From an uncultured Aquimarina sp. (GTDB taxonomy: Bacteria; Bacteroidota; Bacteroidia; Flavobacteriales; Flavobacteriaceae), in contig NZ_CANMQT010000001.1 in the NCBI RefSeq assembly GCF_947500065.1, positions 1-64,000 of the forward strand: a stretch of 64,000 nt of DNA, given 5' to 3'. Below the pieces are notes generated by a model. It did no database searches and was not told where the DNA came from. It worked only from the letters and a program-made list of their open reading frames with translations. Positions 14,739 to 39,063 of the stretch are shown here, piece after piece (the stretch's first letter is position 1; each line of letters begins with the position of its first letter). The translations under genes were made by a program, and so were the position numbers.

Positions 14739-14750
14739 TGATAAAAATCA
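14739..14750. promoter_or_regulatory. FNR-core-like dyad TGATAAAAATCA
   Basis: between ccoI-like (-) and USP (+), about 50 nt from each start. Confidence 0.6.
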
Positions 14751-14803
14751 TAGTTTTAAGTCCAATGACAATTTAGTTTTGGCATATCACCATAATACTA
14801 TCA

Positions 14804-15718
14804 ATGATGAAAAAGATTTTACTACCTACAGATTTTTCAGAAAATTCCTGGAACGCTATTGACTATGCTACGGAACTTTTTAAAAATGAAGCCTGTACTT
14901 TTTATCTTTTAAATGTCTATAACAAGATTATTTATGAATCTGTGCACCTTTCTGACATCTCATCCGAACGTAATATAGAAAATACGGTAAAAGCTAATGT
15001 TGTCAATAATCTCGAACATCTTAAAACATCCTTATTATATACAAGCCTTAATCAAAAGCATCAATTTGAAACCATTGCAGCGCTAGGCTCTTTAATAGAT
15101 GTAACAGAAAATATTGTAAAATCTGAAAAAATTGACCTCATTGTTATGGGTACTAAAGGGGCAACAGGAACAAAAGAAGTATTCATGGGCAGTAATACGG
15201 TGCGTATCATTAACGCTATCAAAAAATGTCCTGTTTTGGCAATCCCAGATGGTTTTACTTTTATAAATACGCCTAAAGAAATTACATTTGCTACAGATTT
15301 CACTCACTTTTACAGTAAAGAAGAATTACAACCATTATTGGATCTGGCTACATCCTTTAACGCAGCTATCAGAATCGTTCATGTGCAACAGGAAGAAGGA
15401 ACCCTAACCGAAGAGCAAAAATTTAACTTAGGAATGTTACAAAAATATTTTAAAGGCATAACGTATTATCAACATACCTTAACCAAAAGTGATTCCGTTT
15501 CAAAATCACTGAAGATTTTCACTGAAAAGCTTGACATTTACTTACTGGCAATGCTAAATTATTCTCACAGTTTTATAGATAAACTTACCAGAGAACCAGT
15601 AATAAAAACCATTGCATTCCATACTCAAATACCTCTGTTGATAATACCGGAATTAGGTATGAGCGCTGCTTTTTCTAAAACGGTTAAACAAGATTCAAAA
15701 TTAGAAGGAATTCGATAA
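14804..15718 (+). CDS. universal stress protein
   Basis: ILLPTDFSENSWNAIDYA...VMGTKGATGTKEVFMGSNT. Confidence 0.92.
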   Translation: MMKKILLPTDFSENSWNAIDYATELFKNEACTFYLLNVYNKIIYESVHLSDISSERNIENTVKANVVNNLEHLKTSLLYTSLNQKHQFETIAALGSLIDVTENIVKSEKIDLIVMGTKGATGTKEVFMGSNTVRIINAIKKCPVLAIPDGFTFINTPKEITFATDFTHFYSKEELQPLLDLATSFNAAIRIVHVQQEEGTLTEEQKFNLGMLQKYFKGITYYQHTLTKSDSVSKSLKIFTEKLDIYLLAMLNYSHSFIDKLTREPVIKTIAFHTQIPLLIIPELGMSAAFSKTVKQDSKLEGIR

Positions 15719-16325: not shown

Positions 16326-16337
16326 TGACAAAAATCA
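16326..16337. promoter_or_regulatory. FNR-core-like dyad TGACAAAAATCA
   Basis: 57 nt upstream of USP start 16395. Confidence 0.6.
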
Positions 16338-16394
16338 TAGTTTCTATGCTTGTAGTTATCTAGTTTTGAGTAAACACTTAATAATAGCTGGATA

Positions 16395-17243
16395 ATGAGA
16401 AAAATATTGATCCCCACAGATTTTTCAGAAAATGCGATGAATGCGATTCGATATGCCGTAGCGCTATTTAAGTATGAACGGAGTGAGTTTTTAATTTTTC
16501 ATGCCTATGCGGATGAAGTATATGACCATAATACATCTGTGTCGCGAAAAATGCTGGAAGAACTAAAAAAAACAGCTCATAAAAACTCTGAAGCAGAATT
16601 AGCCAAAATACTTTCATTAGTAAATGAACTATCTCATAATCCTAGACATGAATACAAAACTTTATCAGTTTTTGGCACACTCATAGATGAAGCGAATGAT
16701 CTGGTGGATCAGAAAAATATTGACATACTAATTATGGCCACCAGAGGCAAAACGGATGATCGTAAACTCACCTTCGGAAGCAACACCTTACAAGTACTTA
16801 AATACGTAAAATGTCCTGTTCTGGCAATCCCTATGGATTGTAAATATGTTCAGCCAAAAAAAATTCTTTTCCCTACGGATTATATGTTACCCTATAAAAG
16901 AAGAGAATTAAAATTACTAAGTACATTGACTAAAAGTTTTAGGTCTTCTATTAACTTTTTACATATTTCTAAATATAAAAAACTGTCCCTACGGCAGGAA
17001 GACAACAAAGCCTTTTTAGAAAAATGTTTATGCGATACAGACGTATCTTTTCATACTATAGATGAAACGGATATTACCACTGCTATCAACCGATATATTG
17101 AAAAAAATGAAATAAACATGCTAGTTATGATAAATTCCAGACATTCATATCTGGAATGTGTACTATATCAATCTACAATTGACAAGATTGGATTACACAT
17201 TAAAATACCATTTCTAACTATGCAAAACTTACACCGAAACTAA
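16395..17243 (+). CDS. universal stress protein
   Basis: ILIPTDFSENAMNAIRYAV...CPVLAIPMD. Confidence 0.9.
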   Translation: MRKILIPTDFSENAMNAIRYAVALFKYERSEFLIFHAYADEVYDHNTSVSRKMLEELKKTAHKNSEAELAKILSLVNELSHNPRHEYKTLSVFGTLIDEANDLVDQKNIDILIMATRGKTDDRKLTFGSNTLQVLKYVKCPVLAIPMDCKYVQPKKILFPTDYMLPYKRRELKLLSTLTKSFRSSINFLHISKYKKLSLRQEDNKAFLEKCLCDTDVSFHTIDETDITTAINRYIEKNEINMLVMINSRHSYLECVLYQSTIDKIGLHIKIPFLTMQNLHRN

Positions 17244-19197: not shown

Positions 19198-20046
19198 ATG
19201 AAAAGAATACTTGTTCCCACAGATTTTTCAAATAATGCATACAGTGCTCTTTTTTATGCTACACGATTATTTCAGGATCAAGCATGTAAATTTTACATCT
19301 TAAACACTTTTAAGGTAAATACTCCGGTTTTAACAAGTAGGATTGATACTAGCAAAGGAGATTTATTATATCAAAAACTGAGTGCTGAGTCTAAAGATTC
19401 ATTAACACAAATATTTCATTCAATTACTAGAGATACCGATGACCTTAACCATACTTTTGAAGCTATCTCTGTTTCTAAAGACTTAACAGAAACAATTCAT
19501 AAAACTATCGAAAGGAATAATATAGATCTGGTGGTTATGGGTACAAAAGGTGCTACCGGGACTGCCAGTCTTTTTATGGGAAGTAATACGGTTAAGGTTA
19601 TTCAAAAAACTCATAATTGTCCCGTTTTGGTAGTTCCGGATGAGTACGATTTCGAAAAGCCGATGGAGATCGCTTTCCCAACAGATTTTAGACGATTTTA
19701 TATAGCAGAAGAATTAAAACCATTAATAGATATTGCTTCTTTGTTTGGTTCTAACATAAGAATTTTTCATATCCATGAAGAGGAAAAGCTAGATGAACTA
19801 CAAGATCATAATTACAATTCTCTAAAAAAATATCTTAAAGATTTTACACATAGTATTCACTGGATATCCAAACTTGATCAAAAGTCTAAACTTATTAATG
19901 ATTTCATTAACCAATTAAACATCAACTTATTAGTGATGGTCAATTATCGACATAGTCTTATAGAAAGTATAACTCATGAGCCAGTCATCAAAAAGTTGGG
20001 ATTTCACGCATCAGTTCCTTTTCTGGTAATACCGGATGCTAGCTGA
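19198..20046 (+). CDS. universal stress protein
   Basis: ILVPTDFSNNAYSALFYAT...VMGTKGATGTASLFMGSNT. Confidence 0.92.
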   Translation: MKRILVPTDFSNNAYSALFYATRLFQDQACKFYILNTFKVNTPVLTSRIDTSKGDLLYQKLSAESKDSLTQIFHSITRDTDDLNHTFEAISVSKDLTETIHKTIERNNIDLVVMGTKGATGTASLFMGSNTVKVIQKTHNCPVLVVPDEYDFEKPMEIAFPTDFRRFYIAEELKPLIDIASLFGSNIRIFHIHEEEKLDELQDHNYNSLKKYLKDFTHSIHWISKLDQKSKLINDFINQLNINLLVMVNYRHSLIESITHEPVIKKLGFHASVPFLVIPDAS

Positions 20047-20055
20047 CAATTATCA
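20044..20055. promoter_or_regulatory. FNR-core-like dyad TGACAATTATCA
   Basis: 59 nt upstream of USP start 20115, overlapping the stop of the preceding USP. Confidence 0.55.
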
Positions 20056-20114
20056 TAGTTTTTAACAGAGAATGATCATACATTTAAACTGTTAATCCTT
20101 AAAAACCTATTCTA

Positions 20115-20966
20115 ATGAAAAAGAAGATTTTATTGCCAACAGATTTTTCTAAAAACGCATGGAACGCTATGAGCTATGCTATTGAGCTTTATAAAAATGA
20201 GGAATGTGATTTCTACGTCCTCAATGTTTTTAACGCTACAGGCTATGCATTAGAAAGTATGATGGTTCCTGAACCGGGAGAAAGAATGTATGAAGAAGCT
20301 AAAGAGAAATCAGAAAAAGGGCTTGGTAAAATTTTAGAACGACTTTCTTTTAGAGACCAATATACAAATCACAAGTTCTTTATGGTTTCACAATTTAATA
20401 GCTTACTCGAAGGGATTAAGGATCTCGTAGATAAACAAGACATAGAAATGGTTATCATGGGAACTAAAGGAGCTACTAATGCGGGTGATGTCATCTATGG
20501 CAGTAATACTGTTTTAGTAATGGAAAAAGTAAGAAACTGTCCTGTAATGGCAATCCCAGAAGATGTAATATATACAGAACCTAAGGAAATTGTATTCCCT
20601 ACAGATTATGAAACACATTTTAAACGCAGAGAGCTACAATACTTGATCGAAATTGCCAAAATTAGTAATGCAGCGGTTCGTTTTCTTCACGTCTCCAATG
20701 AAGATACCTTAAGTGATGAACAAAAAAGTAATCAAAAATTATTGAAAGAATATTTTGAAACTATACCTCATACATTTCACACCTTGCGTAATGTGGATGT
20801 AAAAGGAGGACTCAGTGCTTTTGTAGAAAGTAGAAATAGCGACATGATCACTTTTATAAATAGGAAACATAGTTTCTTTGGGAGTATATTTTCTAGACCC
20901 ATGGTTAAAGACCTCGGATACCATTCTAAAGTGCCAGTATTAGCGTTACATGATATTAAAAATTAA
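20115..20966 (+). CDS. universal stress protein
   Basis: ILLPTDFSKNAWNAMSYAI...IMGTKGATNAGDVIYGSNT. Confidence 0.92.
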   Translation: MKKKILLPTDFSKNAWNAMSYAIELYKNEECDFYVLNVFNATGYALESMMVPEPGERMYEEAKEKSEKGLGKILERLSFRDQYTNHKFFMVSQFNSLLEGIKDLVDKQDIEMVIMGTKGATNAGDVIYGSNTVLVMEKVRNCPVMAIPEDVIYTEPKEIVFPTDYETHFKRRELQYLIEIAKISNAAVRFLHVSNEDTLSDEQKSNQKLLKEYFETIPHTFHTLRNVDVKGGLSAFVESRNSDMITFINRKHSFFGSIFSRPMVKDLGYHSKVPVLALHDIKN

Positions 20967-20978
20967 AACCTACTAGTT

Positions 20979-21401
20979 ATGAAAAACACAGGAATATGGA
21001 TGGATAAGGAAAAAGCCTATATCATCGACATAAAAGAAAATAAAGAAGACATGATCACGATTTTTTCCGAAATAGAAGATTATCGTATTCACGGAGGTTC
21101 AGGAACACGTTTTAAAGGTGGACCGCAAGATGTAGTTCAGGATAGTAAATACCTAGAGCGTGAAAAGAATCAGTTTAAAACATATTTTAAAAAAATAATT
21201 CCTTACATCGAAAATGCTGATAAGATTGTAATTTATGGACCCGCAGAAGCCGGTGAAAAATTCCATAAAGAATTAGAAGAAAATTATAAGAAAATAGGCA
21301 AAAAAGTAAAAGCCGTTCTCAAAGCAGACAGTATGACCGAAAATCAAACAAAAGCTTTGATTCGGGATTATTTCAAGAATTATAAGCCACATATTTTATA
21401 A
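20979..21401 (+). CDS. putative aeRF1/host-attachment-like (translation-associated) protein
   Basis: 140 aa; IWMDKEKAYIIDI...HGGSGTRFKGG...LEREKNQFKTYFKKIIPYIENADKIVIYGPAEAGEKFHKEL. Confidence 0.55.
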   Translation: MKNTGIWMDKEKAYIIDIKENKEDMITIFSEIEDYRIHGGSGTRFKGGPQDVVQDSKYLEREKNQFKTYFKKIIPYIENADKIVIYGPAEAGEKFHKELEENYKKIGKKVKAVLKADSMTENQTKALIRDYFKNYKPHIL

Positions 21402-21437
21402 GAATCCTCCAATAGCAATCTGTTTAGTTTTAAATCT

Positions 21438-22280
21438 ATGAAAAAGCAGGATTTCGACATCCTAAAATCTTCTGGAAAAAGAGTGAAGTTCTCATTAAGG
21501 AAATTGCAGAATTCACTCAGAAGAAGTGGGGCAGATGATAAAACTATTGAACATATTATTGACACCGTTAGAGATGAATTATACCAAGGCATTTCTACAA
21601 AGGAGATTTACAACAGAGCTTTTGCCTTACTTAAAAAGCAAAAATCTGTTTTTGCTTCGAAATACAAACTCAAAAAGGCTATTTATGAATTAGGGCCTAC
21701 TGGTTTTCCGTTCGAGAGCTTCGTAGCGGCTATTCTTAAGCAATCTGGATATCAAGTCAATATTGGACAAATCATATCCGGCAAATGTGTTTCTCATGAA
21801 GTTGATGTAGTTGCTAAGAAAAATACAGATTATATTGTTATTGAATGTAAATTTCATAGTGAAGAAGGGCGTAATTGTAATGTTAAAATCCCTTTATATA
21901 TACACTCCAGATATCAAGATATCCTTAATAATTTTGAAAATAAAAAAAATAACCTGATTACCCCTAATCAAGGATGGGTAGTGACGAATACTCGGTTCAC
22001 AAAAGATGCTATCCAATATGGTGAGTGTGCGGGTTTATATTTACTGAGTTGGGATTATCCAAAAGCTAATGGCCTAAAGGACAGAATTGACCGCTTAGGA
22101 TTATATCCAATCACTGTATCTACACTCCTTACTAATAGAGAGAAACAGTTTTTATTGAGTAGGGATATTGTTTTGTGTAAACAGCTAAGAGGAGATATGT
22201 TTTACCTTGATCATTTAGGCATTTCCGAAAAGAGAAAGCAAAAAATACTGGATGAAATAAATAAGTTATGTAACGAATAA
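21438..22280 (+). CDS. ATP-cone domain fused to Mrr-like PD-(D/E)xK nuclease domain
   Basis: N-term VKFSLRKLQNSLRRSGADDKTIEHIIDTVRDELYQGISTKEIYNRAFALL; C-term HEVDVVAKKNTDYIVIECKF. Confidence 0.78.
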   Translation: MKKQDFDILKSSGKRVKFSLRKLQNSLRRSGADDKTIEHIIDTVRDELYQGISTKEIYNRAFALLKKQKSVFASKYKLKKAIYELGPTGFPFESFVAAILKQSGYQVNIGQIISGKCVSHEVDVVAKKNTDYIVIECKFHSEEGRNCNVKIPLYIHSRYQDILNNFENKKNNLITPNQGWVVTNTRFTKDAIQYGECAGLYLLSWDYPKANGLKDRIDRLGLYPITVSTLLTNREKQFLLSRDIVLCKQLRGDMFYLDHLGISEKRKQKILDEINKLCNE

Positions 22281-22293
22281 AAAGGATCTTCTT

Positions 22294-23664
22294 ATGTCAC
22301 TGGTCAAAATTCATTTTCTTGGAGCAGCAAAAACCGTAACAGGTTCAAAATTTTATATAGAAACACCACAGAAAAACATTTTAATCGACTGTGGAATGTT
22401 TCAAGGTATTAAAGAACTACGAGAGTTAAACTGGAAACCTTTTCCGATGGATACTTCTGTAATTGACACAGTGCTGCTCACTCATGGACATCTGGATCAT
22501 ACTGGTTATTTACCGAGATTAGTTAAGCAAGGATTCCGAGGCGATATTATAGGAACCGCCCCTACTCTGGCAATTACAGAAATTATTCTAAGAGATAGCG
22601 CCAAAATTCACGAAGAAGAAGCCGATAAAGCAAATAAAGAAAGGTATTCTAAACATGATCCAGCTTTACCATTTTATACCCTAAAAGATGCAGAAAAAAC
22701 ATTGCAATATTTTAAAACCAAAGAAAAGGACAACTGGATTTCATTGTCAGATGATATTGAATATAGATTTAGATATAACGGACATATTATAGGAGCTTGC
22801 TTTATAGAATTGAATCTTTTTGAAAAAACCTTAGTATTCTCTGGCGATATAGGAAGACCTGACGATGTATTGCTTCAAGCTCCTGAAAAACCAACATGGG
22901 TAGATTTTCTTTTTATGGAAAGTACGTATGGTAACAAACTGCATCCAGATCAAGATGTAGAAGAGAAATTAATCCAATTGATAAACGAAACCTTATACAA
23001 AAGAGGAACACTTATTATCCCATCTTTTGCGGTAGAACGTTTACAGACATTGATGTATCTTTTATGGAAGCTATATCAAAAAAACAAAATCCCGAACATT
23101 CCCATCTTCGTGGATAGTCCAATGGGCAATAATGTGCTGTCAGTATTTGAACAATTTCCGGATTGGCATAAACTACCAATGAAAGACTATTACGCCATAT
23201 GTAATCATATTAATATTGTTACATCGTATAAAGAAACATGGGAAACAATTGATGATCCCAGACCAAAAATTGTAATTGCAGGTAGTGGAATGGTTACTGG
23301 AGGCAGAGTTTTAACCTACCTAAAACAACTTATAGATATTACCACCACATCTGTTCTTTTAGTAGGATATCAAGCAGAAGGAACTCGTGGCAGACAATTA
23401 CAGGATGGAGCCCATGAAATCAAATTGTATGGTAAATATTATCCGGTAAAAGCGCAAATACATCATATAGAAAGTCTGTCTGCTCATGCCGATCAATATG
23501 AATTGCTTGATTGGGTCAGTAAAATTAAAAACATCCCGGAAAAAGTCTTTCTTATTCATGGAGAACCATCTGCTTCAGAAGCATTTAACATTAAATTACG
23601 AGATACTTTTAATTGGAACATCCATATTCCCAAACTCAATGAAGTTCAAGAGATTATTATCTAA
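22294..23664 (+). CDS. beta-CASP MBL-fold RNA-processing exonuclease
   Basis: LTHGHLDHTGYLPRL, GDIGRPDD, FMESTYGN, GSGMVTGGR, SAHADQYELLDWVS. Confidence 0.9.
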   Translation: MSLVKIHFLGAAKTVTGSKFYIETPQKNILIDCGMFQGIKELRELNWKPFPMDTSVIDTVLLTHGHLDHTGYLPRLVKQGFRGDIIGTAPTLAITEIILRDSAKIHEEEADKANKERYSKHDPALPFYTLKDAEKTLQYFKTKEKDNWISLSDDIEYRFRYNGHIIGACFIELNLFEKTLVFSGDIGRPDDVLLQAPEKPTWVDFLFMESTYGNKLHPDQDVEEKLIQLINETLYKRGTLIIPSFAVERLQTLMYLLWKLYQKNKIPNIPIFVDSPMGNNVLSVFEQFPDWHKLPMKDYYAICNHINIVTSYKETWETIDDPRPKIVIAGSGMVTGGRVLTYLKQLIDITTTSVLLVGYQAEGTRGRQLQDGAHEIKLYGKYYPVKAQIHHIESLSAHADQYELLDWVSKIKNIPEKVFLIHGEPSASEAFNIKLRDTFNWNIHIPKLNEVQEIII

Positions 23665-23885: not shown

Positions 23886-23999
23886 TTTCCTCCATTACAT
23901 TTTGGAAAATCACTCGAATTGACGCTTTTCTTTAACATTTCTTTCATAATGCACAACAGGCTAATCAAACTACTTGTAATCTTTAAAAAAAATAAAGCC

Positions 24000-24413
24000 A
24001 TGACAACCAAAATAAATACAACAAACAAAGATCTTAAAGATATCCATTTCGATACGCTAGAATCAAAATCTAGCTTACAGTTTATTGAAGATGAAGTATT
24101 ATTTATCAATCAGTTACTACACTCCTATGTTTTCGAACCAACAACTCCCAACCTTTTTGAACGCTTACAGGAATTTAGACTTGAAATTGAAAGAGTTAAA
24201 AAGGAAATAGATACACTACACGAAGAGATACGAAAACACGAAAACGAATTGGGTGGAATGCTAGAATGTGATACCATTTCCTGCGATCACTATTATTATG
24301 AAGAACACGAATCATTAAAAAAACGCTTTAATGATTTTTACAAGAATTTCCGCAAGCTAAAATCTGAGGTATTTAATTATGCAGGTGGTATTCTAAAAAA
24401 CAATAAAAAATGA
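24000..24413 (+). CDS. coiled-coil hypothetical protein, paralogue of 25041-25484
   Basis: SLQFIEDEVLFINQLLHSY motif shared with ELKFIKDEQRFLNDLIENY. Confidence 0.75.
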   Translation: MTTKINTTNKDLKDIHFDTLESKSSLQFIEDEVLFINQLLHSYVFEPTTPNLFERLQEFRLEIERVKKEIDTLHEEIRKHENELGGMLECDTISCDHYYYEEHESLKKRFNDFYKNFRKLKSEVFNYAGGILKNNKK

Positions 24414-24431: not shown

Positions 24432-24443
24432 TGATAATTATCA
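24432..24443. promoter_or_regulatory. FNR-core-like dyad TGATAATTATCA (perfect)
   Basis: 72 nt upstream of hsp20. Confidence 0.6.
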
Positions 24444-24515
24444 TTTTTTTCAACTTGTTAAAAACCTACATTTAAAATACTTAAATAGAATACTAATAAT
24501 TAAAACCTAAACATT

Positions 24516-24959
24516 ATGTCAATAATTAAATTTAACAAAAACAGGTTCCCATGGTTCAATGATAGAGTTTCTAATTGGATGGATACTGATAATTTCTTTG
24601 CTGATGATTTCTTTATCAAAGACAGAAACTTACCTGCAATGAATGTAAAAGAACATAAGAATGATTTTGAAATTGAACTTGCAGTTCCTGGGTTTTCAAA
24701 AAAAGATATCGAAGTAACCATGGAAGATGATGTATTACACATCTGTGCAGAAAAAAGTAAGGAAGAAGTAGAAGAAGATAAGGATTACACTCGTAAAGAA
24801 TTTAACTATAGTTCTTTTGACAGAAAGTTACAATTACCTACTAGTGTAGATCAAAACGAAGAGGTTAAAGCGAAATACAAAAATGGTGTTCTTACACTCA
24901 ATCTATTGAAAAGAGAAGAGATAAAAGAACAACCTAAAAAAGTAATCGAGATAGATTAA
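24516..24959 (+). CDS. Hsp20/alpha-crystallin small heat shock protein
   Basis: DFEIELAVPGFSKKDIEVTMEDDVLHI...YKNGVLTLNL. Confidence 0.92.
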   Translation: MSIIKFNKNRFPWFNDRVSNWMDTDNFFADDFFIKDRNLPAMNVKEHKNDFEIELAVPGFSKKDIEVTMEDDVLHICAEKSKEEVEEDKDYTRKEFNYSSFDRKLQLPTSVDQNEEVKAKYKNGVLTLNLLKREEIKEQPKKVIEID

Positions 24960-25040: not shown

Positions 25041-25484
25041 ATGAAATCAAAAAAACCAAACATCAAATACGTAGAGTGGAAAAGTGCAGAAGAATTGCAT
25101 GAAGCTTCTCTTATTTGGATTTCAGAGTTAAAGTTCATCAAAGATGAGCAACGTTTTCTGAATGATCTTATAGAAAATTACACCATGCAATTGATCTCAG
25201 AAAAGACTTTTGAAAAAAGTAGCAAAATAATTAATGAACTGAATCTAAAAAGAAAAGAGGTCAATCCTTTACTAAAAAAGGTAATAAAACACTGTAACGA
25301 GCTTACCATACTCGTTGACGGCATTGATCAACCGGAAGAAGAAAAAAAGTACAAAGAAAATCATCAAGAATTATTAGTCGAAGTAAGTGCTTATTTTGAT
25401 AACTATAAACAGACCAAAAGAAGGATTTTTGATCTTATCAAAACTATTATCAAGACTGGTAAACAAAAACGTTTATTAAACTAA
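25041..25484 (+). CDS. coiled-coil hypothetical protein, paralogue of 24000-24413
   Basis: shared FIxDExxFxNxLxxxY pattern. Confidence 0.75.
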   Translation: MKSKKPNIKYVEWKSAEELHEASLIWISELKFIKDEQRFLNDLIENYTMQLISEKTFEKSSKIINELNLKRKEVNPLLKKVIKHCNELTILVDGIDQPEEEKKYKENHQELLVEVSAYFDNYKQTKRRIFDLIKTIIKTGKQKRLLN

Positions 25485-31743: not shown

Positions 31744-32388
31744 TTAACCTTTATCAATCAGTTCTATCGCACCTTGTTTTAAAACTATAAAACCTTCTTG
31801 TTCCAGTTTTTTGAGTAATCGTGATATCACTTCCCTAGAAGAACCTAAATCATAGGCGATATGCTGGTGCGTAGTATTTAGCGTATTACGTCCTTTTAAC
31901 TTTGCCTCTTTTTTTAGATATTCTAATAACCTTGTATCCTTATTAGAAAATGTTAGTATTTCTATGACATTTAATAATTCTTCGAATTTAATATTGAAAA
32001 GATCATAAATAAACTCATTCCACTTAGGATACTTTTTAGCTATGGCAAGTGCTTTATCTGCTGGGATAATGACAACTTCAGAATCCTCTTCGATAACTGC
32101 CTTTACCTTGCTTGTTTCATTCTTTACCAAAGTGGTTACAGACATTACACAGCTTTCTCCTGGTTTTATATAATATAACAATACTTCATTTCCGTGAATT
32201 TGCTCTTCTTTAAATACTTTTGCCAAACCAGAAATAAGTAATGGAATTACTTTTACATATGCTCCTTGTCTTAAAATTACGGTCCCAGCATCAAAGGTAT
32301 GAACACTACTAATTGCTACAAGTTCTGCTTTTAATTCTGGCATTGTTGCCAACTTTGGAAAGTACGTATCTAGTGCTTTTGAGATCAA
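31744..32388 (-). CDS. Crp/Fnr-family transcriptional regulator
   Basis: cNMP-like fold plus HQHIAYDLGSSREVISRLLKKLEQEG HTH. Confidence 0.9.
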   Translation of the reverse strand: MISKALDTYFPKLATMPELKAELVAISSVHTFDAGTVILRQGAYVKVIPLLISGLAKVFKEEQIHGNEVLLYYIKPGESCVMSVTTLVKNETSKVKAVIEEDSEVVIIPADKALAIAKKYPKWNEFIYDLFNIKFEELLNVIEILTFSNKDTRLLEYLKKEAKLKGRNTLNTTHQHIAYDLGSSREVISRLLKKLEQEGFIVLKQGAIELIDKG

Positions 32389-35287: not shown

Positions 35288-35920
35288 TTAGAGACTTATA
35301 ACTGTAATATTATTTCGATTCAGTTTTATCTTGCCTTCTACCTCTAATTTTTTCAATAATCTTGATATTACTACTCGCGAAGTATGTAAATCATACGCAA
35401 TTTCCTGATGTGTATTATGAACTATAGTATCGTTATTGACTTTGGTTTTGTCCTTCAGATATTTTAGCAATCGTTCGTCCATATTAAGAAAAGCAATGCT
35501 ATCAATAGTTTCTATAGCTTCCATCAATCTTTTATGATAACTTTCGAAAACAAAATTCCTCCAGGATTTATACTTTGCTGTCCATTCTTCCATTTTTTCC
35601 ACCGGAATCATAATAAGCGTAGCATCTGTTTCTGCAATTGCTTTGATTTCGCTTTTATGATGACCGATACAACAAGATAAGGTCATCGCACAGGTATCTC
35701 CTTTCTCTAAAAAGTAAAGTAATAACTCATCTCCTTCCTGATCTTCTCTCAATATTCTAATCGCTCCATTTATAATTAAAGGCATGGATTTAATATAACT
35801 TCCTGGTCGTATGAGTTCCATTCCTTCTGGAATCTCTTTAAAAGTTGCTACACTATTGATTTCTTCTAATAGTTCATTTTCAAAAAGATGCCCATAATTA
35901 TTCTTAAGTTCTTGAATCAT
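35288..35920 (-). CDS. Crp/Fnr-family transcriptional regulator with CxxxxxCC motif
   Basis: DTCAMTLSCCIGHHKSEIKA; HQEIAYDLHTSRVVISRLLKKLE. Confidence 0.9.
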   Translation of the reverse strand: MIQELKNNYGHLFENELLEEINSVATFKEIPEGMELIRPGSYIKSMPLIINGAIRILREDQEGDELLLYFLEKGDTCAMTLSCCIGHHKSEIKAIAETDATLIMIPVEKMEEWTAKYKSWRNFVFESYHKRLMEAIETIDSIAFLNMDERLLKYLKDKTKVNNDTIVHNTHQEIAYDLHTSRVVISRLLKKLEVEGKIKLNRNNITVISL

Positions 35921-38163: not shown

Positions 38164-39000
38164 TCAATTATGCATAATAAGTAAGGGAACTCTGGTACCG
38201 TAACTTATTTTGGAAGTCTCAGAACCACTAAAGAATCGCTCCAGAAATGTTTCTCTTTGGATAAACATCGCATTCATATCGACATCCATAATTTGCACGA
38301 AACTATTGATGGCAAGAGCTGTAGGAACATTGGTAATAGAATGAAAGGTATGATTGATGTCTTTAAAAAAATCTTTTAGATGTTTCTTATCATCAAATTC
38401 TGCTATCGTAACTGTTTCGTCTTCTTTTATCTTTAGAATCCTTAAAGAGGCTTTAAATTTGATCAATGTATCTACTAAGGGTTCAATATTTTCTGTAGTG
38501 AAGTGGTCATTATAATCAATGGTATACAATATTGTTTTTAGCCCCTCAAAAACATATCCTTGAGGAATCACGAGTACCGGACAATCGATCTTACGAATTA
38601 CATTAAGTGTATTACTCCCGAAAACGACTTCTCTGGCACCTGTCGCTCCATTAGTACCCATAACGATGAGATCAATATTTTTTGATTTTACAGCCTGTTT
38701 GATCGCATCCGTAAAAATATCATAATCTGTAAGTGCATGAAACGTATAATTCTCGTGTAGAATTCCGTTTTTTAGTTCTGTTATCAATGTATTGAGTTGT
38801 TCCTTAGATCCTTTTAAGACGGATTGATGAATAGAAGTATTGGCGGGAGCAGTCATGAGATCATCCGTCATATAGTTAGAAGCTTTTTGCACATTCAGCA
38901 CATAAAACGTACAGAGCTCGTTTTTGAAAAACTCGAGTGCATAATCAATGGCATTTTTTGCATTTTCTGAAAAGTCAGTAGGAAGCAGGATATTTCTCAT
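38164..39000 (-). CDS. universal stress protein
   Basis: ILLPTDFSENAKNAIDYAL...VMGTNGATGAREVVFGSNT; start at MRNILL preferred. Confidence 0.92.
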   Translation of the reverse strand: MRNILLPTDFSENAKNAIDYALEFFKNELCTFYVLNVQKASNYMTDDLMTAPANTSIHQSVLKGSKEQLNTLITELKNGILHENYTFHALTDYDIFTDAIKQAVKSKNIDLIVMGTNGATGAREVVFGSNTLNVIRKIDCPVLVIPQGYVFEGLKTILYTIDYNDHFTTENIEPLVDTLIKFKASLRILKIKEDETVTIAEFDDKKHLKDFFKDINHTFHSITNVPTALAINSFVQIMDVDMNAMFIQRETFLERFFSGSETSKISYGTRVPLLIMHN

Positions 39001-39051
39001 TGTCTGATGATTTAATATCATAAAAGTACTGCTGCTTCTGCGGAGGAACTA

Positions 39052-39063
39052 TGATATTTGTCA
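39052..39063. promoter_or_regulatory. FNR-core-like dyad TGATATTTGTCA
   Basis: 51 nt upstream of USP start 39000. Confidence 0.6.

Follow-up and report, generated by a model that had tools for sequence, protein, structure and literature searches.

The window analysed here is the first 64,000 nucleotides (positions 1–64,000, forward strand) of contig NZ_CANMQT010000001.1 from an uncultured Aquimarina sp. of the Flavobacteriaceae. It carries an array of universal stress protein (USP) genes followed by three plus-strand open reading frames (ORFs), which we name P1 (20979–21401; 140 amino acids), P2 (21438–22280; 280 amino acids) and P3 (22294–23664; 456 amino acids) and refer to together as the cassette. 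A preliminary description made from the letters of this DNA had placed three co-oriented, tightly spaced ORFs after the USP array, and its coordinates were exact. The last USP gene of the array (20115–20966, plus strand) has the same orientation and ends 12 nucleotides before P1, while the gaps between P1 and P2 and between P2 and P3 are 36 and 13 nucleotides. This USP is the first gene of the operon USP-P1-P2-P3; its product matches Pfam Usp (E = 3.5e-23) and has the ATP-type motif G2XG9XGS at residues 116–130. No terminator-like site was found between positions 19900 and 24600. The nearest named genome is that of an Aquimarina in which the P2 orthologue is 94% identical.

The three proteins of the cassette

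The assignment of P1 as an aeRF1-like protein was originally a guess on sequence. P1 alone gives only incidental matches to Pfam and NCBIfam, none of the Pfam baeRF families matches it, and a sequence search of the PDB with the P1 profile returned marginal Pelota matches only. The guess gains support from the family and from the predicted fold. Of 47 family members scanned, 12 match Pfam eRF1_2 (E down to 4e-4), and weak matches were found to baeRF_family5 (six members) and baeRF_family12 (two). The AlphaFold2 model of P1 has a mean pLDDT of 80.7, and the top 31 Foldseek matches to it in the PDB are all eRF1, aRF1, Pelota or Balon structures (E from 3e-7). VIA-align superposes 131 of the 140 residues on eRF1 143–285 (Z 12.2, root mean square deviation 3.3) and aligns P1 with Balon proteins at Z 9–11. 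As modelled, P1 is a stand-alone middle domain (M, domain 2) of the eRF1/aeRF1 superfamily, with this fold across the whole protein. Both the N-terminal domain that serves the codon and decoding centre and the C-terminal pelota-type domain are missing. Since P1 superposes on the eRF1 middle domain only, it has the catalytic-type domain and nothing else.

Just before a long helix of P1, in a position like that of the GGQ loop, lies a GGPQ loop (residues 47–50; codons at 21117–21128, plus strand), identified by alignment of the cassette-type members. Among 40 such members Q50 and G48 are each found in 38, P49 in 35 and G47 in 28, with W47 in 10. The surrounding segment, GGSGTRxKGGPQDVVQDSKYLEREK, is among the best conserved of cassette-type P1. 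The GGPQ motif is lacking in the P1 paralogues that Flavobacteriaceae encode elsewhere and in cyanobacterial relatives. The alignment of Q50 with the GGQ glutamine, made with an eRF1 sequence, is a weak one, and the loop is poorly modelled. Among members of the superfamily P1 stands out by its unusual state, a single domain with a GPQ loop. Three baeRF families were reported to retain this core only, most baeRFs being without the catalytic glutamine (Burroughs and Aravind, PMC6514570).

P1 might be a pure hibernation-type blocker, a Balon-like wedge without flanking domains whose GGPQ loop only touches rRNA, with P2 and P3 acting as general RNA clean-up enzymes functionally unconnected with it. 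The eRF1-type fold, without GGQ, is also that of Balon and its mycobacterial homologues, which are encoded in stress/hypoxia operons with Hsp20 and RaiA (PMC10901736). The scarcity of the catalytic glutamine among baeRF families (PMC6514570), the presence of HPF in the same regulon (see below) and the frequent absence of P1 where P2-P3 is present are also in keeping with a blocker. However, the loop is highly conserved in cassette-type P1 (Q50 in 38/40) and lacking outside the cassette, and P1 is without the domains that anchor Balon to the decoding centre and EF-Tu. We regard a pure blocker as rather unlikely.

P2 was described beforehand as an ATP-cone joined to an Mrr-type nuclease, and both domains score above their Pfam cut-offs (ATP-cone 26.6 bits, cut-off 25.8; Mrr_cat 30.9 bits, cut-off 21.0). 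The ATP-cone occupies residues ~8–67 and is followed by an Mrr/AF1548-like PD-(D/E)xK nuclease and an AF1548-like C-terminal domain. AF1548 (PDB 1y88) is matched by sequence at E = 2.4e-43 over the nuclease and C-terminal part only; with the predicted model (mean pLDDT 87.1), Foldseek returned AF1548 at 3e-15 and the NrdR/NrdA ATP-cones at E 4e-3 to 1.5e-2. A sequence search of the PDB with the ATP-cone profile gave designed-repeat and annexin matches only, which were discarded. The catalytic triad D123, E136, K138 (21804–21851, plus strand) is invariant among 21 P2 homologues across the phylum, down to 43% identity. ATP-cone residues K10, G13, K22 and T54 are invariant in the same 21 proteins and are also found in the cone of the host's own ribonucleotide reductase-like (NrdA-type) protein; K10, K22 and T54 are what we take to be nucleotide-contact residues of the ATP-cone family. 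Judged by its sequence, P2 is an ATP-cone protein fused to an Mrr/AF1548-like PD-(D/E)xK nuclease. Literature searches on the ATP-cone/Mrr combination found nothing relevant.

Two further observations concern P2. Residues C117, H120, C137 and C197 (within 21786–22028) are invariant and lie around the nuclease active site, the three cysteines aligning with cysteines of archaeal AF1548; they could possibly form a metal site or a redox switch. In the locus of one relative (L056, 11178–12713), the ORF just 3′ of P2 has an N-terminal ATP-cone followed by a glucoamylase-type-like region of ~430 amino acids, a fusion that also occurs in two further genomes (G374 and G407).

P3 was identified beforehand as a CPSF-like beta-CASP nuclease, which agrees with its Lactamase_B, Beta-Casp and RMMBL domains in Pfam. 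Its closest solved relative is TTHA0252 (E = 1e-70, near full-length), and its other top matches are the RNA-cleaving beta-CASP enzymes CPSF73 and FttA. The motifs HGHLDH (64–69), GHIIGA (163–168) and SGDI (183–186) are present together with E209, H398 and H422. Residues H64, H66, D68, H69, H164, D185, E209, H398 and H422 are each at least 97% conserved in 88 homologues. Its sequence is that of a complete beta-CASP enzyme with both the metallo-beta-lactamase (MBL) and the beta-CASP motifs, predicted to be a ribonuclease.

Conservation and gene neighbourhoods

Linkage of the three genes was surveyed in 80 named loci centred on P2, 30 loci centred on P1 and 299 Flavobacteriaceae genomes (co-occurrence), and neighbour families were counted in 101 neighbourhoods. 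P3 lies directly 3′ of P2 in 76 of the 80 P2 loci, mostly with gaps below 20 nucleotides or overlapping. The gene directly 5′ of P2 is P1 in 22 of these loci and MscS in 13, and a USP precedes in 35. Around P1, a P2 gene is found within 1.5 kb in 24 of the 30 loci and USPs in 26. The arrangement of the cassette is not due to chance, because P2 and P3 are adjacent in 76/80 loci and P2 accompanies P1 in 24/30. Among the 299 genomes, P1 is present in 79, P2 in 130 and both in 63 (odds ratio 9, Fisher P 4e-14, uncorrected for phylogeny), with P1 and P2 within 3 kb of each other in 41 of the 63.

Genes that recur nearby encode a PAS histidine kinase, a receiver-cNMP-HTH_Crp regulator, Hsp20, thioredoxin, cbb3 oxidase together with the FixI/CcoI copper ATPase, CbpA/CbpM and HPF. 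Genes for MscS, lipoproteins and cardiolipin synthase-like proteins are found there as well. That USPs, MscS, Hsp20, lipoproteins and cardiolipin synthase-like genes share the neighbourhood would fit co-expressed housekeeping stress genes without joint function, their conserved order reflecting shared regulation only. Yet 76/80 loci and another phylum (Criblamydia) preserve the order and spacing of P2-P3, more tightly than those of the other members, and we hold this explanation to be rather unlikely.

Outside Flavobacteriaceae, P2-P3 is found in operons for salvage and fermentation. In Pontibacter and Criblamydia plasmids it is followed by genes for an AMP/thymidine-phosphorylase-family protein and a phosphoribosyl pyrophosphate (PRPP) synthetase. 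In Criblamydia, where P2 and P3 overlap by 4 nucleotides, phosphoketolase, glucan phosphorylase and acetate kinase genes also adjoin. In Shinella, Rhizobium and Methylophaga, the phosphorylase and PRPP synthetase genes accompany a P3 homologue in the absence of P2, the Shinella locus including phosphoketolase too. A Paraburkholderia homologue is found with the arginine deiminase pathway and USPs and without the phosphorylase/PRPP synthetase pair. The plasmid loci of P3 homologues in Legionella and Aureibacter show neither the pair nor an arginine deiminase/USP context. The link of P3 with the pair is thus frequent and not universal. On the Criblamydia sequanensis plasmid (locus L177, 8016–10213) a site-specific integrase is encoded near P2-P3, which suggests horizontal transfer between phyla.

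These contexts bear on the possibility that P2-P3 is a DNA-directed nuclease, repair or restriction pair gated by dATP/ATP and co-regulated with stress genes as DNA is at risk in anoxia and re-aeration. P2 matches Mrr_cat, Hjc-like and restriction-enzyme-like proteins, and the ATP-cones of ribonucleotide reductase and NrdR bind ATP/dATP. However, P3 best matches RNA-cleaving beta-CASP enzymes (TTHA0252, CPSF73, FttA), and in other bacteria P2-P3 is accompanied by genes of nucleotide salvage and fermentation, not by repair or methylase genes. A role on DNA seems to us very unlikely.

A composite promoter and its regulon

The operon is preceded by a composite promoter (20044–20085, plus strand). 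It consists of the CRP/FNR-type palindrome TGACAATTATCA (20044–20055) and, after 23 nucleotides, the sequence TACATTT (20079–20085), a box of the Bacteroidota -7 type. The palindrome, as TGAYAWWWRTCA, was first noticed as a repeat 5′ of several USPs and Hsp20 and is also found 5′ of the cassette operon. TAnnTTTG is the established -7 box of Bacteroidota. In aligned sites TAnnTTT starts exactly 23 nucleotides after the palindrome in 83 of 121 cases; each other offset is represented by at most two sites, except offset 0, where the match is the 3′ extension of the palindrome itself. With position -12 assigned to the first base of TAnnTTT, the palindrome is centred at -41.5, the position of a class II CRP/FNR activator. 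The TGA-N6-TCA palindrome thus stands at a fixed, class II-like position before the member genes.

Genome-wide counts are based on pattern searches, in which the composite pattern occurred at 14 sites of the 6.57-Mb genome and its reversed control at one. Five are in the window: besides the site of the operon-leading USP, these are 14739–14780 (plus strand) 5′ of the USP gene 14804–15718, 16326–16367 (plus) 5′ of the USP gene 16395–17243, 24432–24473 (plus) 5′ of the Hsp20 gene 24516–24959, and 39022–39063 (minus) 5′ of the USP gene 38164–39021. Another eight lie in the first 45 kb of a second contig, C11, including sites 5′ of the cbb3 oxidase operon and just 5′ of HPF. The fourteenth site, 5′ of a gene for a protein with two CBS domains, is outside the two clusters that hold the other 13. 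In about 100 loci of relatives there are 143 composite sites, compared with none for a changed-spacing and none for a reversed control; 80 of them precede USPs, and in 46 loci a co-directional gene run led by such a site reaches P2. The 13-nucleotide half-pattern alone is not enriched genome-wide (35 sites, 37 when reversed). It is unspecific on its own, so specificity arises only with the -7 box at fixed spacing. The generic FNR pattern TTGATNNNNATCAA was discarded as a motif, being not enriched in the window (116 occurrences, 107 expected).

The sister cluster at C11 1–45000 codes for cbb3 oxidase, hemN, a PAS kinase and receiver-Crp pair, CbpA/CbpM, thioredoxin, deoC, purine-nucleoside phosphorylase, peroxiredoxin and HPF (gene names beyond family matches were read from sequence by eye). 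As the window and C11 share the composite pattern and its sites, the two clusters form one regulon. Its membership (cbb3 oxidase, hemN, HPF, the PAS-kinase/receiver-Crp pair) strongly suggests control by oxygen or redox. Because the operon shares its promoter with the cbb3, HPF, Hsp20 and USP clusters, the cassette is most likely an oxygen- or energy-limitation module.

The preliminary description had offered an energy- or stress-gated RNA and translation module or, alternatively, a defence function. The first proposal fits the regulon. The second, an anti-phage or ribosome-inactivating defence module, is hinted at by PADLOC, where P2 weakly resembles CARF-PDDEXK and P3 weakly resembles LmuA-type MBL proteins, and by Foldseek matches of P2 to the Can2/Card1/Cdn1 effectors, with which it has the nuclease fold in common. 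These matches are confined to the nuclease or MBL fold. Against the cassette proteins PADLOC gave partial matches only (E 2e-5 or weaker) and no full-length defence match with system partners. Across scores of genera the cassette is accompanied by USPs, Hsp20, cbb3 oxidase and HPF, and the promoter is shared. Hallmark defence genes were not encountered, and the gene order is kept, not shuffled. Defence was rejected for lack of context, the setting being a conserved stress/low-oxygen regulon instead, and we consider it extremely improbable.

Other features of the window lie downstream of the cassette. An inverted repeat 3′ of P3 (23840–23881; 42 nucleotides, arms of 21 nucleotides, 86% complementary) is a possible processing or repeat element. 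The Hsp20 small heat-shock protein of the same regulon (24516–24959, plus strand; Pfam HSP20, E = 7e-24) is found in 37 of the 101 neighbourhoods. A family of ~147 amino acids, function unassigned, is encoded at 25041–25484 (plus strand), gave no confident match in Pfam and recurs in 59 of the 101 neighbourhoods; a second member of this ~140–147-residue family is encoded between P3 and Hsp20 (23994–24413). In the segment 27646–35920, two Crp-family regulators encoded on the minus strand (31744–32388 and 35288–35920) surround genes that have rhodanese, MBL and small membrane transporter-like features. This composition suggests a sulfur-related set adjoining the stress cluster.

Proposed role and related systems

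We consider it somewhat probable that the cassette is the RNA and translation arm of a low-oxygen (energy-limitation) regulon of Flavobacteriaceae, with P1 acting on ribosomes and P2/P3 in RNA turnover. The USP-P1-P2-P3 operon lies behind a CRP/FNR-type palindrome at a fixed distance from a -7-type box. Its activator may be the receiver-Crp protein paired with the PAS histidine kinase, or a Crp-family relative, responding to oxygen or redox. P1, given its fold, would enter the A-site and peptidyl-transferase centre of idle or stalled ribosomes, where it might either block the centre in a hibernation-like manner, as Balon does, beside HPF of the same regulon, or release peptidyl-tRNA through its GGPQ loop. 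Domains and residues would make P3 an RNA-cleaving nuclease, and the ATP-cone could make the activity of P2 follow the adenine-nucleotide level. P2 and P3 would then degrade RNA once ATP falls, the nucleotides going to salvage and energy. In a bolder version, P1 is a minimal single-domain aRF/eRF-type peptidyl-tRNA hydrolase that frees nascent chains at oxygen loss; the freed or idle ribosomes would be stored by HPF or stripped of RNA by the ATP-sensing P2-P3, the products feeding salvage and substrate-level ATP formation. We judge this version decidedly unlikely.

The findings of a conserved neighbourhood, conserved ATP-cone and nuclease residues and an eRF1-like fold of P1 agree with the expectations of the preliminary description. 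The fold of P1 and the conserved loop of its cassette branch, the residues of P2, the motifs of P3, the linkage of the genes, the composite sites and the nucleotide-salvage neighbours of P2-P3 in other bacteria count in favour of an RNA and translation arm. Several points speak against this assignment. Fewer than half of the P2-bearing genomes encode P1, and in 22 of the 63 genomes with both genes P1 and P2 are not within 3 kb of each other, in some through broken contigs. P1 is therefore not an obligate partner: P2-P3 is the core of the cassette, and P1 is frequent and optional. Residues 38–46 of the P1 model are of low confidence, and catalysis by the GGPQ loop is uncertain because the first G is W in 10 of 40 members. 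The substrate of P2 may be RNA or DNA; its nearest solved relative, AF1548, was deposited without an assigned function. In the host genome the AMP phosphorylase/PRPP synthetase pair does not adjoin the cassette. Induction elsewhere, in contrast, supports the assignment: microoxic Bradyrhizobium diazoefficiens induces the adjacent bll3115–3117, coding for an MBL hydrolase, a PRPP synthetase and a thymidine-phosphorylase-family protein (PMC6515984), although we deduce that these are homologous to P3 and its partners from how they are annotated and ordered and not by comparing sequences.

The operon points to an inbuilt programme that idles ribosomes and recycles RNA when oxygen and energy are exhausted. 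These findings link a nucleotide-sensing nuclease, so far unstudied, and a one-domain relative of the release factor that terminates translation in human cells to a precisely defined promoter, HPF and cbb3 oxidase across scores of marine genera. What was a set of hypothetical genes becomes a low-oxygen dormancy programme that can be tested. The programme provides exact predictions (the 42-bp promoter, Q50 and D123/E136/K138) for translation shutdown and RNA recycling without oxygen. If the GGPQ loop were active, archaeo-eukaryotic peptide-release chemistry would run as a single free domain in bacteria.

The individual proteins differ from their characterized relatives in a few defined features. 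P3 has all MBL and beta-CASP motifs in common with TTHA0252, while only P3 is operon-linked to an ATP-cone nuclease and a low-oxygen regulon. P2 shares the nuclease core and C-terminal domain of AF1548 (PDB 1y88), and the N-terminal ATP-cone is its own addition. P1 has the middle-domain fold of Balon, Rv2629 and Msmeg1130, with Hsp20 and RaiA/HPF nearby in both settings (PMC10901736). In contrast to Balon, which has no GGQ motif, it is a 140-residue protein made of the middle domain only, with a GGPQ loop; proteins below 300 amino acids were left out of the Balon survey (PMC10901736). Among the single-domain baeRF and VLRF/Vms1 proteins, aVLRF and acVLRF keep a spaced glutamine motif, GGxSQ (PMC6514570). 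The GPQ-loop P1 branch tied to P2-P3 was not found described in our literature search.

The preliminary description knew of no pathway combining such proteins. This does not hold for the general mixture, since similar ones are found in microoxic Bradyrhizobium (PMC6515984) and in Balon-type stress operons (PMC10901736); it stands for the P1-P2-P3 operon, its composite promoter and the P1 loop, which a literature search did not find described. Microoxia in B. diazoefficiens further induces a "translational machinery protein" and two "host attachment proteins", along with phosphoketolase, USPs, Hsp20 and CBS proteins (PMC6515984). USP arrays and Hsp20 are common to this FixK2/microoxia set, the lxa locus of B. 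cenocepacia (PMC6127331), DosR of M. tuberculosis and the Aquimarina regulon. One or another of the three programmes also has CBS-domain proteins, release-factor-like proteins or cbb3 oxidase, and control is oxygen-responsive. The main text of the lxa paper mentions no ATP-cone protein, and homology to lxa is not claimed. By analogy, the Aquimarina programme resembles a low-oxygen stress regulon with ribosome-directed proteins, of a kind already known from DosR, lxa and FixK2. It differs from them in belonging to another phylum and in its regulator architecture (PAS kinase and receiver-Crp), and the composite promoter and P1-P2-P3 operon were encountered among Bacteroidota only. Its unusual parts are the GPQ-loop single-domain eRF1 relative and the ATP-cone nuclease paired with a beta-CASP enzyme.

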